DNA from: Porphyromonas sp. COT-239 OH1446
Lineage (GTDB): Bacteria; Bacteroidota; Bacteroidia; Bacteroidales; Porphyromonadaceae
Reading direction: 5' to 3'
Assembly: GCF_000768875.1 (NCBI RefSeq)
Contig: NZ_JRAO01000027.1
Location: 124,897 to 157,565 of the forward strand
DNA: 32,669 bases
Below are positions 1-32,127 of this stretch, piece by piece (position 1 is the stretch's first letter; each line of letters begins with the position of its first letter). The notes under the pieces are model-generated. The model did not search any database, had not been told where the DNA came from, and worked only from the letters and a program-made list of their open reading frames with translations. Both the position numbers and the translations under genes were made by a program.

Positions 1-114
1 CGAGACACAAGTAGGATCGAAAGCGAAATCCTACTTAGATCGACTGTGAGACTCAACTAGGATCACAAGACTAGTGTAAATAGGAACGCAGATACATTTC
101 TACTTAGATCGACA
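1..114. repeat. Intergenic 23-bp modular repeat array A (5 units, mixed orientation)
   Basis: Five degenerate units whose core hexamers (GTAGGA-like forward, TCCTAC-like reverse) start at 11 (fwd), 29 (rev), 57 (fwd), 80 (fwd) and 98 (rev). Spacings of 18, 28, 23 and 18 are exactly what abutting 23-bp units give when orientation flips. The first two units form a perfect 9-bp inverted pair, AAGTAGGAT at 9-17 and ATCCTACTT at 28-36. The array reaches the window's left edge, so it may continue outside. It is the same family as the arrays at 11350, 24129 and 31867. Function unknown. Confidence 0.8.
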
Positions 115-9120: not shown

Positions 9121-10467
9121 CTAGTGCACACGAGCCTTGCGAAACCAAGCCTCGTTGAAGGTCAACCCCAGCGTAATGCCAAGGTAGTGCTCTCGGATCA
9201 TAGATGGCCGCTGAGGCGAGAGATACTTGTAATTGACTGCAAGGTTGAGGAAGGAGCGCATATCCACCAGAGGGAGGGCCATCCCCAGAGAGGCTCCGAG
9301 CTCCTGATAGCCAGCAAAGTCCGATGAGGCAGGCAGGGCGATCTTCATGTGCCCCTGACCGAAGCTCAAGCCGAAGCGATAACGAGCGCGCTTGAAGATG
9401 CTTCGGCTGCGTGCCGAAGGCAAGATCTCTGCTCCGAGAGCAAGGCTATAGGTATCGGCTAGCTGACCAATCTGTACCCCCTCCTGGTCGATGAGCTTAC
9501 CCACCTGATTGCGGTACTTAGCACTAGACCACTGGCTATAACGCAAGTCTGCCCCAACGAGCATCTTGTCCTGGATGCGATACGAAGCCCCGAAGCCCAA
9601 TGATAGGGGTAGGGTGTAGTGCCCGTTGGTAGTGATTGTATCACGCTTGAGAACAATGCTGTTACCTGTCGCAGAGTTGATCGCCAGGCGGTTCTCCTGC
9701 TCCTCCACAGAGAGCGATGTAGGCAGGCTAGCCGTTACACCAAGGGTTAGGGATCTCTGTCCCTTGTCGCCGAAGGCGATCTCGTACTGAGTGCCAAGGT
9801 CGAACTTGACCCCCCTCAGATCCATCCGATCTGTGAAGACAGGGTTGATCGCCCCTGGTGTCGAGTAGATCACCCTGCGCTCGTGAGCGTTCACCCCAAA
9901 GAGGAAGGAGGCATTCGCTCCAATGCTCAGTCCCTTGAGTGGGGTAAGGGCCGAGAAACCAAGATAGAGATTGTTGTACGTCCCCTCGCCCGAGTAAGTG
10001 CGTACCGAGGTCTTGCCGTCCTCGCCTGTCGAGAGGGTCTCAGGGCTGCCGAAGCGGTAACCTGTCGTCGCCCAAGGCATGATGCCTGCGCTCATAGCTA
10101 GCGAACGGCCGAGCGGCATGAGGATAGTCATGTACTCGAGGTTACCTAGCGTGCGGGCATCGGACCGCTTCCCCTCAGCAATCCATCCGTTACGCAGCGA
10201 TACGGCTACGTCCATGATAAAGGTCAGCGAGTCTACTGCACTGTAAGAGGCTGGATTGCCAGGGTTGATGATATAGGCATCTCTCAGACCAACCGAAAGG
10301 CCTCCCATAGCACGGCTGCCCGCAGTGGTATTGGGCGAGAGCATCCCATAGCCATAGCGGCTATAGGGCGAACGCTCATTGTTCTGTGCCGTAGACACGC
10401 TAGGCACTAGGGGCAGGATGGCCAGGGCCATGAGGCCGATACATCTAGTTATTTTGCGGATCATCAT
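9121..10467 (-). CDS. Outer-membrane beta-barrel protein
   Basis: A 448-residue predicted outer-membrane barrel. Signal peptide at about 1-27 (ending VSTAQ), then NNERSPYSRYGYGMLSPNTTAGSRAMGG, a start typical of Bacteroidetes barrel proteins related in style to FadL/PorV-like channels. Alternating hydrophobic beta-strands follow, with aromatic girdle residues and a strand-like C-terminus. No specific channel family could be assigned. Its start overlaps the coaX stop by 4 bp, so it is translationally coupled to a cytosolic kinase, and the TPR gene follows after 44 bp. Context suggests a role in outer-membrane biogenesis or transport together with lptC; that is inference. Confidence 0.85.
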   Translation of the reverse strand: MMIRKITRCIGLMALAILPLVPSVSTAQNNERSPYSRYGYGMLSPNTTAGSRAMGGLSVGLRDAYIINPGNPASYSAVDSLTFIMDVAVSLRNGWIAEGKRSDARTLGNLEYMTILMPLGRSLAMSAGIMPWATTGYRFGSPETLSTGEDGKTSVRTYSGEGTYNNLYLGFSALTPLKGLSIGANASFLFGVNAHERRVIYSTPGAINPVFTDRMDLRGVKFDLGTQYEIAFGDKGQRSLTLGVTASLPTSLSVEEQENRLAINSATGNSIVLKRDTITTNGHYTLPLSLGFGASYRIQDKMLVGADLRYSQWSSAKYRNQVGKLIDQEGVQIGQLADTYSLALGAEILPSARSRSIFKRARYRFGLSFGQGHMKIALPASSDFAGYQELGASLGMALPLVDMRSFLNLAVNYKYLSPQRPSMIREHYLGITLGLTFNEAWFRKARVH

Positions 10468-11189
10468 TTGTTATACTCCAATATTACATTCAGGCCGCTG
10501 AGCACGAGGTTACGCACGGCCATCGTTTTGTTTCTAAGATGAGGGGCGAGCTTGGGGGCATCGCCGCCAGAGACGAAGACAAGAGCATCCGAATGCTCTG
10601 CTCGTAAGGCATCTATGTAGGCATCCATCTCATAGAGCAACCCCTGCATCACTCCTAACGCTAGAGCTTGCTGAGTATTGTGTCCGTAGGGTGCGCCGTC
10701 GAGGGCTGGCTCGACCCAGGGCAGACGAGAGGTGAAGTGCTGTAGTGCCTTGGCACGCAGCGAGAGACCTGCCGAGATGTTGCCTCCGACATATACCCCT
10801 GCCGAGGAGATACGTTCGTAGGTAACAGCCGTACCGGCATCGATCACGAGACACTCACGTCCGAGCGTTCCGAGAGCAACAGCCCCGACGACAGCGGCCA
10901 CTCGGTCTGTTCCCAGAGTGGTACGGTCGTAGGCGATCTCTACGGGCACGGGCGTGTGGGCATCCATGTTGATGACCAGGGGCAAGCGATCCTGCAATAG
11001 GCGAAGCGGCTCATGATCCACATCAGCTACAGAGCTATAGATGGCGGCCGAGATCTCGGGATGGCGATCAAGAAGGCTATTGACCTCGGGCCAATAGAGC
11101 CGAGGAAGCACATAATTCTTGAGCACACGCCGAGCATCGCACACAGCGATCTTGCATACAGTATTGCCTTGATCTATTACTAAGTTCAC
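10464..11189 (-). CDS. coaX: Type III pantothenate kinase
   Basis: Phosphorylates pantothenate, the first step of coenzyme A synthesis. The 241-residue protein belongs to the CoaX/ASKHA fold: N-terminal phosphate loop DQGNT at 6-10, GTDR at 93-96 (pantothenate-binding segment), DAGTAVT at 117-123, and GGNISAGL at 135-142. The length is slightly under the roughly 250 usual. First gene of a minus-strand run into the envelope genes, overlapping the barrel gene by 4 bp. A weak -7-like box lies about 26 bp upstream. Divergent from queC across a repeat-filled intergenic region. Confidence 0.95.
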   Translation of the reverse strand: MNLVIDQGNTVCKIAVCDARRVLKNYVLPRLYWPEVNSLLDRHPEISAAIYSSVADVDHEPLRLLQDRLPLVINMDAHTPVPVEIAYDRTTLGTDRVAAVVGAVALGTLGRECLVIDAGTAVTYERISSAGVYVGGNISAGLSLRAKALQHFTSRLPWVEPALDGAPYGHNTQQALALGVMQGLLYEMDAYIDALRAEHSDALVFVSGGDAPKLAPHLRNKTMAVRNLVLSGLNVILEYNK

Positions 11190-11222: not shown

Positions 11223-11349
11223 CGCTTTTTTTGTGGAATAAGCCCCCTTGCCGAGAGGGCAAACCTACAAACTAACTTCCCCCCAGCCCCCAACAGGGCC
11301 TCGATCTCCCTCCTCGAACTCCAAGGATAAAGTATAGCGGCTATCCGAT

Positions 11350-11558
11350 CCTTCGGAAGTGTAGGAGCGCAGGTGAGGTATAAGTAGAGCCTCGATCAAG
11401 GTGATAGATAGGGCCTCCTCAGAGACATAAGTAGGAGTGCCATCGAGATATAGATAGGGCTTCAATCGAAGTATAAGTAGGAGCTCGATGGAGATATAAG
11501 TAGGAGCGCAATCGAGGCGATAGATAGGATCTCCATCGGGCAGATAATAGGCTTACAA
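11350..11558 (+). repeat. Intergenic 23-bp modular repeat array B (9 units, one orientation)
   Basis: Nine forward units whose core hexamers start at 11361, 11384, 11408, 11431, 11454, 11477, 11500, 11524 and 11547, so the period is 23 (twice 24). The unit consensus is TCGAGATATAAGTAGGA followed by GCTCGA. Two core variants occur, TAAGTAGGA and TAGATAGGA, partly alternating. The unit ends (TCGAG/CTCGA) are inverted copies of each other. The array lies in the 550-bp gap between divergent coaX and queC. The rest of that gap (11223-11349 and 11559-11712) shows no gene, only a C-rich patch near 11279-11300 and weak small hairpins. Period-driven open frames on the minus strand here are artefacts. 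Confidence 0.88.
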
Positions 11559-11712
11559 GCAGGGTCTCGAGACGACACTTCAGTTGCAAAGAAGAGAAGA
11601 TAGCCACAAAATACTAGCAGATAAGCAAATAGATATCCTTATGCTGCTCATGCCGTAGGGCTCTAGGCGTTCGAGGCACGGGGGAGAGAGTTGGAGCTTG
11701 AGAGATAATGCC

Positions 11713-11720
11713 TATCTTTA
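11713..11720 (+). promoter_or_regulatory. Candidate -7 box for queC
   Basis: TATCTTTA, one mismatch from TAnnTTTG at the last base. It lies 20 bp before the ATG at 11740 and supports that start over the TTG at 11698. No preQ1-riboswitch-like structure was recognised between it and the gene. Confidence 0.4.
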
Positions 11721-11739
11721 CCTGCAAGTGATTAGAGAC

Positions 11740-12432
11740 ATGATACAGGAGCACATCCAAGATCCTCAGCACCTCGGCCTCATCGTCCTCTCGGGCGGTA
11801 TGGACAGCGTAACCCTACTCTACGAGTATAGGGAGCGGATTGGCCTTGCCCTATCCTTCGACTACGGAGCCAAGCACAATGCTCGAGAGCTGCCCTGCGC
11901 TCGCTACCACTGTGAGCGTCTCGGCATCCCCCACATCATCATCCCCCTGGGCTTCATGGGTGAGTACTTCCGCAGCTCACTGCTGCTCTCAGGTGGCGAC
12001 ATCCCCCTGGGCCAGTATGACGAGCACAATATTCAGAGTACCGTCGTCCCCTTCCGCAACGGGATCATGCTCTCCATCGCCGCAGGCCTGGCCGAGAGCC
12101 ATGCACTCGGGAGCATTTACATTGCTAATCACTTCGGCGACCATGCCCTCTACCCCGACTGCCGAGCCAGCTTCATCGAGCCCATGACCAGGGCCGTTAG
12201 GGAGGGAACGACCAATGCCGTCGAGCTCATAGCCCCCTACACCCACCTCGACAAGGGCCAAATAGCCAGCATCGGGGCACGCCTAGGCATCGACTACAGC
12301 CATACCTGGAGCTGCTATCAGGGGCGAGAGCTGCACTGCGGAGAGTGCTCCACCTGCCTGGAGCGACGTGAGGCTATGGCCCAAGCCGGACTAGAGGACC
12401 CCACTGCCTACGAGAGCAAACCAATACAATAG
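11740..12432 (+). CDS. queC: 7-cyano-7-deazaguanine synthase (preQ0 synthase)
   Basis: ATP-dependent conversion of 7-carboxy-7-deazaguanine to preQ0 for queuosine tRNA modification. With the ATG at 11740 the protein has 230 residues. Seen: PP-loop SGGMDS at 18-23, FDYGAKHNARE, STVVPFRNGIML, IANHFGDHALYPDCR, and the structural zinc cysteines Cys192, Cys200, Cys203 and Cys206 (CYQGRELHCGECSTC). The frame is open back to a TTG at 11698, but those 14 extra residues are not needed by the family and overlap the -7 box. No other queuosine genes (queD, queE, queF) are in the window. A stem-loop separates it from rfbC. Confidence 0.94.
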   Translation: MIQEHIQDPQHLGLIVLSGGMDSVTLLYEYRERIGLALSFDYGAKHNARELPCARYHCERLGIPHIIIPLGFMGEYFRSSLLLSGGDIPLGQYDEHNIQSTVVPFRNGIMLSIAAGLAESHALGSIYIANHFGDHALYPDCRASFIEPMTRAVREGTTNAVELIAPYTHLDKGQIASIGARLGIDYSHTWSCYQGRELHCGECSTCLERREAMAQAGLEDPTAYESKPIQ

Positions 12433-24062: not shown

Positions 24063-24128
24063 AATCCCTACAGCTCCTCGAGTGCGTGCCTATCGGATAA
24101 GCGGCGAAGAAGCTATATGGCCCCGCCT

Positions 24129-24220
24129 CTGAGCTCCTACTTATATCTCGACAGAGGTCTAGATAGGAGTTCACTCGAGCTCCTATCTGAGTCTCGGTGG
24201 CGATCCTACTTAGACCTCTA
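24129..24220. repeat. Intergenic 23-bp modular repeat array C (4 units, mixed orientation)
   Basis: Core hexamers start at 24135 (rev), 24163 (fwd), 24181 (rev) and 24204 (rev). Spacings of 28, 18 and 23 again fit abutting 23-bp units with orientation flips. Lies between the convergent GH109-type gene and uvrB, flanked by the terminators of both. The rest of the 24063-24310 gap shows no gene. Confidence 0.82.
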
Positions 24221-30036: not shown

Positions 30037-30603
30037 TTAGTGAGCTTCGAGACGAGCATGCAGCTCGGTGTAGAGCTCCTTGAACTCCTGCTCCACCTCG
30101 GCGAAGGGCCGCACCTCGAAGCGAGGCTGAGTCAGGATCTCGGCCTTGTAGGGCGTGAGCTCTTGCTTCATGTAGTGAAGGAACTCGTGGTAGAGCATCG
30201 CATTGTCGATCGCATCGACCTGTGCGAACTCGGCCTCAGATAGCTCCGAGCCGAGGAAGAACTCATAGATCATCCGCTGTAGGCGATCCTCTACCTCGAG
30301 GTAGAAGTCGAGCTGCCTCTTCACCGGACGGGTAATGTCTGAGATATAGGCCTCACTCGAGTCGTGCACCAGAGCGGCCAGGGCCACTCGAGGCGAATGC
30401 CCTCGGGCAATGGCCTCTCGGGCGCAGGCGATGCAGTGCTGCCCTACGGAGTAGAACTCGGGCATATGTCCATTGGCCCGTGTCATGAGCGAGAGGGCAT
30501 GGGCAATATCGTCCAAACAAATATCCTCCCGCTTGGGATCTAGAGGTGCGATCCGTCTCCCAGTATAGGTCGTGATATACTCTGTCATAGGCTTGCGGCT
30601 CAT
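30037..30603 (-). CDS. HD-domain phosphohydrolase (YfbR-like)
   Basis: A 188-residue metal-dependent HD protein similar to YfbR-type 5'-deoxynucleotidases or related phosphohydrolases. Seen: His56 in YSVGQHCIAC, the HD pair His80-Asp81 in ALVHDSSEAYISDI, and a further conserved Asp in VDAIDNAMLYHEFL near 130. No membrane segment. Its start overlaps the trpS stop by 4 bp, so translation is coupled. The substrate cannot be read from sequence; dephosphorylation of dNMPs is the family precedent. Confidence 0.85.
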   Translation of the reverse strand: MSRKPMTEYITTYTGRRIAPLDPKREDICLDDIAHALSLMTRANGHMPEFYSVGQHCIACAREAIARGHSPRVALAALVHDSSEAYISDITRPVKRQLDFYLEVEDRLQRMIYEFFLGSELSEAEFAQVDAIDNAMLYHEFLHYMKQELTPYKAEILTQPRFEVRPFAEVEQEFKELYTELHARLEAH

Positions 30604-31592
30604 TGTCTAGCCCTAAAGCCAATGATGTGGCGCACCTCGTCAATGGTCTGACGAGCTCGCTCTCGAGCCCGCTCTGCCCCCTCTCGAGCCACACGAGAGA
30701 GGAAGTCGGTGTCGGCACTGAGCTCGGCAATGCGCTCACGGATCGGGGCGCAGTAGGCGTTGATGTCCTGGGCCAGCTGCTTCTTCAGATCGCCATAGCG
30801 GATCGAGCAGTCGGCATAACGCTCGTTGAAGTAGTCGTAGGTCTCCTGCGTAGAGACGAGCTCCATGAAGGTGAAGAGGTTCTCGATCACCTCGGGCTTG
30901 GGGCTATTGGGCTCTGTGGGGCCCGAGTCCGTTACGGCCTTCATGACCTTCTTGCTAATGGTCTTCTCGTCGTCCTTGAGGTAGATGCAGTTGCCCTCGC
31001 TCTTGCCCATCTTACCCGAGCCGTCAAGCCCTGGCACTTTGAGAGCCTTCTCCCCAAGAGAGTAGGACTGTGGCTCGACAAAGTAGTCGACACCGTAGAT
31101 GGTGTTGAAGCGACGGGCGAACTTGCGGGCCATCTCCATATTCTGCTCTTGATCCTTGCCCACAGGCACCTTGACGCCTCGGTGGATGAGAATGTCTGCG
31201 GCCATGAGGCTAGGGTAGGTCAAGAGGCCAGCATTCACATTATCGGGCTGCTGCCGAGCCTTCTCCTTGAAGGAGGTGGTACGCTCTAGCTCGCCCAGAT
31301 AGGCGTTCATATTGAGGTAGAGATAGAGCTCGAGCACCTCGGGCACATCACTCTGAATATAGATTGTAGCCCTCTCGGGGTCTATGCCACAGGCCAGGTA
31401 CTCGGCCAATATCGTGTAGGTATTGCGTACAATATCCTCGGGGCGTGGGTGCGTGGTCAGCGAATGCCAGTCGGCTATAAAAAACGAGCAGTCATACTCG
31501 TGCTGCATCTGTGTAAAGGCGCGTACCGCTCCGAAGTAATTGCCCAGGTGCAGATTACCGGTGGGGCGGATGCCACTTACTACTCTTTCCAT
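30600..31592 (-). CDS. trpS: Tryptophanyl-tRNA synthetase
   Basis: Class I aminoacyl-tRNA synthetase that charges tRNA-Trp. The 330-residue protein has the HIGH-type motif PTGNLHLGN at 10-18 and the KMSKS-type motif KMGKS at 194-198; ADWHSLTTHPRP and VPVGKDQEQNMEMAR are further family segments. Start at 31592 (MERVVSGIRPTGN), which fits the family N-terminus; the 25-residue upstream extension to 31667 runs across the promoter. First gene of a seven-gene minus-strand run to uvrB, with a -7 box about 45 bp upstream. Confidence 0.97.
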   Translation of the reverse strand: MERVVSGIRPTGNLHLGNYFGAVRAFTQMQHEYDCSFFIADWHSLTTHPRPEDIVRNTYTILAEYLACGIDPERATIYIQSDVPEVLELYLYLNMNAYLGELERTTSFKEKARQQPDNVNAGLLTYPSLMAADILIHRGVKVPVGKDQEQNMEMARKFARRFNTIYGVDYFVEPQSYSLGEKALKVPGLDGSGKMGKSEGNCIYLKDDEKTISKKVMKAVTDSGPTEPNSPKPEVIENLFTFMELVSTQETYDYFNERYADCSIRYGDLKKQLAQDINAYCAPIRERIAELSADTDFLSRVAREGAERARERARQTIDEVRHIIGFRARQ

Positions 31593-31636
31593 TCTAATAC
31601 TCTTTGTACTCGTATAATATACATCTGTGTAGCAGG

Positions 31637-31644
31637 CAAAGATA
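31637..31644 (-). promoter_or_regulatory. -7 box for the trpS-uvrB run
   Basis: The minus strand reads TATCTTTG (TAnnTTTG), with an implied leader of about 38 nt. It is the only good box seen ahead of this seven-gene run. No T-box leader was recognised. Confidence 0.6.
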
Positions 31645-31866
31645 GTCATAATTGGCTCGTCGCCCAAGAGGCATCCATGGGCATCCGAGGCATAGAGGTC
31701 GAACTAAATATCCCCATAGCATAATCTCAGAGGCAATGCGATCCACTCTTTAGCGAAGGGTTTCTCCCTATTCTCTGCTCATCAATCTGCTCATCGGCCT
31801 CGACCCCGATAGGCTCTCCGATGAGGGCCCGTCGGCCGCGCTGCGACGAGCCCGTAACCCTCTCGC

Positions 31867-32006
31867 TGGAGATCTAGATAGGATCTCACCCTCGATCCTA
31901 CTTGAGCCTCGATCGAGCTCCTACTTATACCTCCACCTCGATCCTATCTAGATCTCTCGCATAGGGCCTATCTGCCTCCTCAGCCGAGATCTAGGTAGGA
32001 GCTCCG
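31867..32006. repeat. Intergenic 23-bp modular repeat array D (6 units, mixed orientation)
   Basis: Core hexamers start at 31878 (fwd), 31896, 31919, 31942 and 31966 (rev), and 31995 (fwd). Spacings are 18, 23, 23, 24 and 29, matching abutting 23-bp units with two orientation switches and two 1-bp slips. Lies in the 630-bp gap between divergent trpS and the small-lipoprotein gene. The remainder of that gap, 31645-31866 and 32007-32127, shows no gene or tRNA. Confidence 0.85.
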
Positions 32007-32127
32007 CCACGGGCCTAGCGAATGCAGCCCCATGGCGAGCGAGCCCTCTAGAGCACCGATCGCTTGTAAGCAAAAAACAATAAATATTCTCTTCTAGCAA
32101 GAAGGCTATACTTATCATATTATTTGC

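Follow-up and report, generated by a model that had tools for sequence, protein, structure and literature searches.

A row of short, abutting repeat units separates the divergent genes coaX and queC in Porphyromonas sp. COT-239 OH1446, which raises the question of whether such a row is an array of binding sites, a nucleoid or transcription-insulating element, or a mobile repeat. The stretch analyzed (hereafter the window) comprises 32,669 nucleotides, and the genome to which it belongs is denoted G000. The original prediction described nine units at steps of 23 bp, twice 24 bp, between the two genes, and the gene order was upheld by the protein-family matches listed below, the steps and the register by Tandem Repeats Finder, which reported a period of 23 at 11422-11516 (score 97) and a period of 46 at 11427-11515 (score 113), as well as by a 23-column scoring profile. 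This profile was built solely from 151 units of another contig (C2), which had been chosen with an earlier profile that had included the window. Seven units were found with it, starting at 11381, 11405, 11428, 11451, 11474, 11497 and 11521; six of them score 16.5-29.1, which exceeds the highest value obtained from 50 block-shuffled windows (15.6), and the remaining one has 12.8. The ninth unit, beginning near 11544, was recognized as in register by eye and is absent from the profile list at a cut-off of 2. The relevant features of the window are as follows.

8..30, + strand: single unit at the left end of the window, score 23.9 (profile scan)
10464..11189, - strand: coaX, type III pantothenate kinase, divergent from queC (TIGR00671, 105.9 bits, cut-off 58.2)
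11260..11267, - strand: candidate -7 element TAGGTTTG of coaX, between the array and the coaX start (letters checked)
11350..11558, + strand: tandem array of nine 23/24-bp units in register, seven of them well-scoring, between coaX and queC
11358..11380, + strand: degenerate edge unit, in register, profile score 3.2
11381..11403, + strand: unit TAAGTAGAGCCTCGATCAAGGTG, profile score 16.8
11405..11427, + strand: unit TAGATAGGGCCTCCTCAGAGACA, profile score 16.5
11428..11450, + strand: unit TAAGTAGGAGTGCCATCGAGATA, profile score 26.8
11451..11473, + strand: unit TAGATAGGGCTTCAATCGAAGTA, profile score 21.1
11474..11496, + strand: unit TAAGTAGGAGCTCGATGGAGATA, profile score 29.1
11497..11519, + strand: unit TAAGTAGGAGCGCAATCGAGGCG, profile score 27.6
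11521..11543, + strand: unit TAGATAGGATCTCCATCGGGCAG, profile score 12.8
11698..12432, + strand: open reading frame of queC, 7-cyano-7-deazaguanine synthase (TIGR00364, 155.6 bits, cut-off 150.3)
11713..11720, + strand: candidate -7 element TATCTTTA of queC, between the array and the queC start, with one mismatch to TAnnTTTG
24074..24212, mixed strands: second array of the family, orientation --+-, in a convergent gap (profile scan)
31806..32014, no strand assigned: third array, upstream of trpS (30600-31667, - strand), with units at 31806, 31882, 31905, 31928 and 31992

The queC reading frame opens with TTG, and the ATG at 11740 is the likelier start. The window holds 20 profile matches, counted at a score of at least 2 in or near the three arrays or at the left end and of at least 8 elsewhere, some of which are probably due to chance; the lone unit at 8..30 is possibly the end of an array lying outside the window. 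Both cores named in the original prediction, TAAGTAGG and TAGATAGG, are present, but their strict alternation fails in the coaX–queC array. We agree that the array is neither a CRISPR nor a simple microsatellite: its units abut and vary in place, and a constant repeat with unique spacers is not found in it.

We then asked how the unit is built and how often it recurs in G000. A first profile drifted because the unit is quasi-palindromic, and it was replaced by a strand-resolved one. The unit reads GAG-R-Y-M-YARRTAGGA-N-Y-K-C, repeats at a strict 23-bp pitch and is joined by a loose 4-bp linker, NATN; in the G000 profile, its GAG and CTC ends flank an asymmetric, conserved core, YARRTAGGA. In the training lot, 51 of 90 clusters of profile hits were kept, and 11 single-unit loci among them (8 wholly inside predicted genes) were excluded from the array counts. 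The training lot contained 40 arrays (211 units) and the held-out contigs 35 arrays (203 units), making 75 arrays in 832,669 sampled bp, and the reversed sequence gave none for either lot. Extrapolation to 1.96 Mb yields an estimate of approximately 177 arrays in G000, where the samples are stretches, some of them taken on contigs known to contain hits (one genome per species was sampled throughout). The G000 arrays hold 2-11 scoring units, mostly 4-7, and the in-register signal dies away over 3-5 further units on each side. Units lie on both strands in 31 of the 75 arrays. In 38 of the 45 listed cases, opposite-strand neighbors are separated by 30 bp (+-) or 39-40 bp (-+); the flips therefore keep the 23-bp register, which survives them because the unit is a quasi-palindrome. 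Among the 44 single-strand arrays, units two apart are more alike (identity 0.689) than after shuffling of their order (0.640, sd 0.007), and adjacent units are slightly less alike than expected (0.627 versus 0.639 shuffled), indicating that the 46-bp alternation is statistically real.

The search of the genus proposed in the original prediction was run as a pattern. With at most one mismatch, a 21-base G000 pattern gave 228 matches in G000 against 1 in the backwards control, and 0-4 matches in each of 25 other genus genomes, with 0-4 in their own controls as well; without mismatch, it gave 53 matches in G000 and none in 37 other genomes of the family. The search thus stood far above its control in the genome of origin, but in only 1 of the 26 genus genomes. 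An exact two-unit G000 pattern had no matches in genome_contigs, from which G000 itself may be left out, and none in viral_contigs, and the coaX–queC gap had none in phages; spread of the arrays by phages was rejected on the latter two results.

A named repeat family with comparable units is BrickBuilt, an intergenic repeat of P. gingivalis whose 23-nt units follow one another in tandem with no spacers between them (Klein et al. 2015, PMC4596501). The accessible portion of that paper describes a leader, a tail and IS5-like ends, with leader, tail or both in 16 of 19 elements and unit mismatches of 0-11%, reports the element only from P. gingivalis and P. gulae, and refers to previous mentions of repeats of 22, 23 and 41 nt in strain W83. 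In the portions available of two further papers, PMC5771137 annotated BrickBuilt and left short repeats of 3-31 bp unannotated, and PMC4060949 contained nothing specific; a literature search limited to open-licence papers returned no description of a wider 22/23-bp array class. The BrickBuilt consensus AGAYCATARTATCCTCTCRTRTG rotates to RTRT-GAGAYC-ATARTATCC-TCTC, a frame of 4+6+9+4 that is also that of the G000 unit, NATN-GAGRYM-YARRTAGGA-NYKC. The G000 arrays further match BrickBuilt in having 23-nt tandem units without spacers and in being intergenic: none of the 75 is coding according to gene calls from our own script rather than a standard caller, and one array of the training lot overlaps a gene by 7 bp. 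They differ from it in the core, and the G000 pattern has no matches in G006, whose units fit the BrickBuilt consensus. Differences also extend to abundance (an estimated 177 or so arrays versus 19), to the leader and tail, which have no counterpart at G000 arrays, to within-array identity (62% versus 93% in two sampled BrickBuilt arrays), and to the orientation flips of the G000 arrays. The expectation that no named family would match was therefore borne out in part, as BrickBuilt shares the 23-bp frame but differs in its core and possesses a leader and tail that G000 lacks. A core-free pattern derived from the BrickBuilt frame (GAG-N13-CTC-N4 repeated, at most one mismatch) gave, with controls in brackets, 516 (3) matches in G000, 374 (2) in G006, 87 (2) in G002, 42 (0) in G008 and 30 (1) in G013, and 0-3 in each of 21 other genus genomes. 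This frame accordingly occurs in five genus genomes with four different cores: besides that of G000, BrickBuilt units in G006 and G008, GAGGTATCCYCGTAACCTC in G002 (P. catoniae) and GAGGYRCYACTRGYGCCTC in G013.

The common frame GAG-N13-CTC-N4 would be expected if the G000 arrays were BrickBuilt-type minisatellites travelling in a MITE (a non-autonomous transposon) that an IS transposase mobilizes, and had no host function, as would a leader, a tail and IS5-like ends of the kind published for BrickBuilt (PMC4596501). One pair of arrays (C2 78959 and 206558) can be aligned over 217 bp at 82%, slightly past the called units, and whole-array copying therefore happened at least once. Against such a transposon, comparison of all 76 flanks of 38 G000 arrays with one another gave only 2 flank-flank matches and thus no shared leader or tail, and the arrays have no common flanks to carry terminal repeats like the IS5-like ends of BrickBuilt. 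Eight DDE_Tnp_1 genes were found, with convincing inverted ends at three loci (L055, L057 and L058); none of these ends starts with GAG, and array-like ends were absent at the IS examined. The Y1 (RAYT-type) transposase model PF01797 had no matches in G000 and was matched in 5 of 14 control genomes. In addition, the units have diverged, those of one locus resembling each other scarcely more than those of different loci, and the arrays are enriched at divergent promoters, where neutral insertions are least expected. We consider a MITE origin unlikely, and the mobile-repeat reading of the original prediction is disfavored by the lack of common flanks, of a Y1 transposase and of array-like IS ends, the one alignable array pair notwithstanding. 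Separately, the IS at L057 (G000:C30) and L058 (G000:C7), with ends ACGTGAGTTCGGTATAAG and TAGTCGTCCCTTAAA, appear inside array-like units at TA, and arrays may serve as insertion targets.

A motif-free lag scan was applied to 15 other Porphyromonas genomes (1.56 Mb). Of the 121 arrays obtained, 92 have a period of 21-23 (8 at 21, 34 at 22 and 50 at 23), with 43 of the 50 23-bp arrays lying in G002, and nine further arrays have periods of 44-46. The block-shuffled genus set gave no arrays, and 100 kb of E. coli K-12 gave none at period 21-23. A 22- or 23-bp array was present in 10 of the 15 genomes sampled, with clear dyad symmetry (z at least 2.5) in 7, and was absent from the samples of 5. 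No arrays were found in 40 kb each of G010 and G014; G001 and G025 had only 21-bp arrays in their 40-kb samples; and G009 had none at 21-23 in its sample, yet carries 22-bp arrays at two other loci. Most of the 22/23-bp motifs are unrelated between species, and some are common (BrickBuilt in G006 and G008; AAGTTATATTACTT-like units in G011 and G016). In other Bacteroidales (76 loci, 1.26 Mb; the title of one, L136, names Porphyromonas), a period of 22-23 was seen in 9 of 40 arrays, and five of these 9 have dyad symmetry at z of at least 2.5 (L110, L131, L135, L136 and L159); the genus sample contains such arrays at a density per base that is five times (without G002) to eight times (with G002) higher.

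Several of these genomes show further repeat types. Two 23-bp families, CGAGTTACCATAACTCG and GAGGTATCCCCGTAACCTC, occupy separate arrays of the one P. catoniae genome (e.g., L187:9011-9169), and G011 has several 22-bp palindromic motifs (L104, L105 and L106), namely GACCNATATAGGTC, ATACGTAT and AAGTTATATTACTT, the last resembling the G016 arrays. The 21-bp arrays of G025 and G001 (L205, L206, L087-L088) consist of GGAATCAAATGAAACTTC-type units beside CCACGTGG palindromes, with a period lacking clear dyad symmetry. Arrays with a 41-bp period, at L100:3027-3202 (P. loveana) and once in the G008 sample, recall the 41-nt PgRS repeats of P. gingivalis. The G016 sample (L202-L204, L252-L256) contains six arrays with an 18-bp period, which are perhaps coding, this period being a multiple of three.

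Although most motifs differ between species, their geometry follows a rule. Considering clear symmetry only, the dyads of 22-bp arrays lie between base pairs in 21 of 21 cases, whereas the main dyad of 23-bp arrays lies on a base pair in 39 of 42; in the three exceptions, the on-base dyad scores just 0 to 0.04 lower. The linker dyad lies between bases in 21/21 arrays at 22 bp and in 40/41 at 23 bp. Since a period of 23 forces one dyad of each kind, the informative parts of this result are the even linker side and the absence of on-base dyads at 22, and the 23-bp period resembles one of 22 with a single base pair added at the palindrome center. Outside the genus, two arrays run against the parity, L135 (22 bp, on a base) and L168 (23 bp, between bases), neither of them significantly (z 1.4 and 0.2). 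When conservation was aligned on the linker, P. catoniae family A (23 bp) correlated with G016 (22 bp; r 0.95) and G011 (22 bp; r 0.81); the three agree among themselves at r 0.79-0.95, and G004 agrees less (0.46-0.55). The profiles of G000 and P. catoniae family B differ from this group (r 0.19-0.48). A contact profile common to all families is therefore only partly kept, and one protein family for all of them is not established. Conservation of spacing over sequence had been taken to suggest helical phasing or protein packing; of these, packing gains support from the rule of period and parity, whereas simple helical phasing fits less well because a pitch of 22-23 bp does not correspond to a whole number of B-DNA turns.

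The similarity of units within and between arrays bears on how the arrays arose. In G000, unit identity is 0.620 within arrays and 0.604 between them, the former being slightly but significantly above the maximum (0.618) of 500 permutations. The corresponding values are 0.689/0.701 and 0.625/0.624 for P. catoniae families A and B and 0.648/0.652 for G016, with G011 family a as an exception (0.606 within, 0.548 between); the two sampled BrickBuilt arrays give 0.93 both within and between. Conserved and free columns are identical within and between G000 arrays, a pattern as would be seen for sites held by selection. The within-array excess, together with the 46-bp alternation, indicates that some local duplication or homogenization occurs. 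Neutral minisatellites, generated by slippage or unequal exchange and surviving where genes allow, would account for this alternation, for edges that decay over 3-5 units, and for the clean gain or loss of 22 bp that distinguishes an orthologous 22-bp array in G006 and G008. They would not lead one to expect a single motif common to loci across the sampled genome, nearly equal identity within and between arrays, position-specific conservation, a bias to sites upstream of promoters (see below), or the concentration of 92 of 121 lag arrays from 15 genomes at period 21-23 together with the parity rule, and we regard such an origin as distinctly improbable.

The position of the arrays relative to genes is biased. 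In G000, arrays occupy 31 of 62 divergent, 7 of 60 convergent and 34 of 418 codirectional gaps, and the lag arrays of the 15 other genomes likewise occupy 30/78 divergent and 10/84 convergent gaps (p 1e-4). Gap length matters, as none of the 18 divergent G000 gaps with less than 300 bp left after array removal holds an array. With length matched, the divergent excess persists in G000 (30 versus 23.4 expected, p 0.021), in P. catoniae (18 versus 10.6, p 0.0005) and in all 16 genomes (60 versus 36.2, 0 of 2000 permutations), while the length-matched convergent shortfall is not significant in G000 (7 versus 11.2 expected, p 0.057) or in all genomes (15 versus 19.6, p 0.13) and is absent in P. catoniae (6 versus 5.2). 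The Bacteroidetes -7 promoter element is TAnnTTTG. On the sense strand of the gene in G000, it was found 83 times between array and start codon (32.6 kb), 17 times on the far side of the arrays (33.7 kb) and never within them (14.4 kb); the arrays therefore lie mostly upstream of promoters, and between both promoters in divergent gaps. The genes near arrays that we looked at were coaX, queC, trpS, dnaN and those for an aldose epimerase, DUF4301 and a YfhO-like protein. No common function was apparent among these few downstream genes, and such ordinary neighbors favor a general role over a single regulon, few though the genes are.

Arrays recur at orthologous promoters of G000 and five other species in 18 joint cases against 13.4 expected (p 0.034, pooled and uncorrected for gap length), and in P. 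catoniae alone the sharing is not significant (p 0.15); conservation of position is thus suggestive only, an example being the array upstream of dnaN in both G000 and G016. Of 24 genus coaX loci, three (G000, P. loveana and G001) have a 22- or 23-bp array upstream of the gene, with unrelated sequences. By a rough estimate, three arrays are near what array density predicts, and we do not claim positional conservation at coaX. At the coaX locus of G025 (L083), a 7/14-bp repeat (CCAACAG-like), unlike the 22/23-bp arrays, lies about 220 bp upstream of the gene. In G007 (L085/L086, G007:C33), the matches to coaX fall in two frames that overlap, and one of these frames contains four TAG stops; this suggests a frameshift or an assembly error.

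Palindromic units could also form arrays of RNA hairpins in leaders or terminators. Mismatches in the palindrome arms of G000 comprise 141 G-T and 139 A-C (78 and 77 on the sense strand of the downstream gene), and those of other genomes 127/135 and 52/57. No strand asymmetry between the two classes was found; since an RNA hairpin would tolerate G-U far better than A-C, the palindrome is kept at the DNA level. An analysis of mutual information across 782 column pairs, drawn from 128 adjacent unit pairs, revealed no base-pair covariation, only local couplings, the strongest joining neighboring columns (21-24, 3-4 and 9-10), and the best distant Watson-Crick excess (z 3.3) is unremarkable given the number of tests. 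RNA pairing was rejected on the equal mismatch classes and the absent covariation. Furthermore, promoter elements lie mainly downstream of the arrays, which would place most arrays outside the leader, and the window had no Rfam matches at the gathering threshold. RNA hairpin arrays are accordingly a most improbable explanation. The arrays look like rows of DNA sites, and not like a young MINISATELLITE / minisatellite, a MITE or RNA hairpins.

Preservation of the palindromes at the DNA level, enrichment between divergent promoters and freedom of the sequence to differ between species would equally suit a structural role of the DNA itself, in which palindromes or bends take up negative supercoils between promoters without any sequence-specific protein. 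Short mismatched arms, however, make poor cruciforms, a single genome-wide motif would be needless for such a role, and the core that is conserved is asymmetric; we think this explanation very unlikely.

Among the three readings offered by the original prediction, the binding-site array is the best supported, given the location upstream of promoters, the DNA-level palindrome, the nearly equal unlikeness of units within and between arrays, and the fixed geometry. The G000 arrays combine a conserved pitch and site motif with independence of their flanks and a position at promoters. Judged from sequence, our best reading, which we hold with somewhat more confidence than doubt, is that the arrays are cooperative binding platforms of a putative dimeric protein with species-specific sequence preference; a function as nucleoid or insulating element would be compatible with them. 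Under this binding-platform reading, a putative dimeric DNA-binding protein would occupy each palindrome, and neighboring dimers would touch across the even linker. That contact would set the pitch, at 22 bp for an even palindrome and at 23 bp for one with a central base pair. The filament so formed may influence the neighboring promoters from upstream, as a regulatory platform or an insulator, with repression, activation, insulation and nucleoid organization all conceivable, and the preferred sequence would be rewired from species to species. More broadly, and as a tentative proposal to which we give a little less than even credence, Porphyromonas and, at lower density, other Bacteroidales may possess an unrecognized promoter-upstream lattice in which a putative protein family polymerizes on 22/23-bp palindromes, neighbors making a fixed contact over an even linker and the recognition sequence being rewritten in each species while position and geometry persist.

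With arrays in 31 of 62 sampled divergent gaps, whatever reads them would be a global factor. By this comparison BrickBuilt, so far described as a species-specific minisatellite in a MITE, becomes a single member of a broader class that follows a geometric rule. If sequence preference indeed drifts while geometry stays, this would be an unusual instance, in bacteria, of a global DNA-binding factor co-evolving rapidly with a very large number of sites.

Other repeat systems invite comparison with the G000 arrays. The iterons of plasmid origins are sites of roughly 17-22 bp, arranged in tandem and recognized by a single protein, whereas the G000 arrays are palindromic and located at many chromosomal promoter loci. 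REP/BIME elements, according to the accessible part of PMC3733652, are short palindromic intergenic repeats in many copies, linked to RAYT transposases; the G000 repeats are likewise short, palindromic, intergenic and multicopy, but G000 is without a Y1 transposase gene, and its arrays have a fixed 23-bp pitch and lie upstream of promoters. The TAACTGA direct repeats of Beggiatoaceae, Cyanobacteria and some Bacteroidetes, as presented in the available sections of PMC4679880, resemble the G000 arrays in that considerably more than a hundred sets of intergenic repeats precede genes unrelated to one another. Their units are 7 bp long, lie mostly within nucleotides of start codons and are thought to act on translation, unlike the 23-bp palindromic units upstream of promoters in G000. 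As a system that works in a similar way, we point to BldC, described in the part of PMC5859096 available to us as a small regulator that oligomerizes cooperatively along direct repeats of variable length, bound head to tail; the repeats of BldC are direct and the units of G000 quasi-palindromic, and the likeness lies in a regulator oligomerizing along repeated sites.
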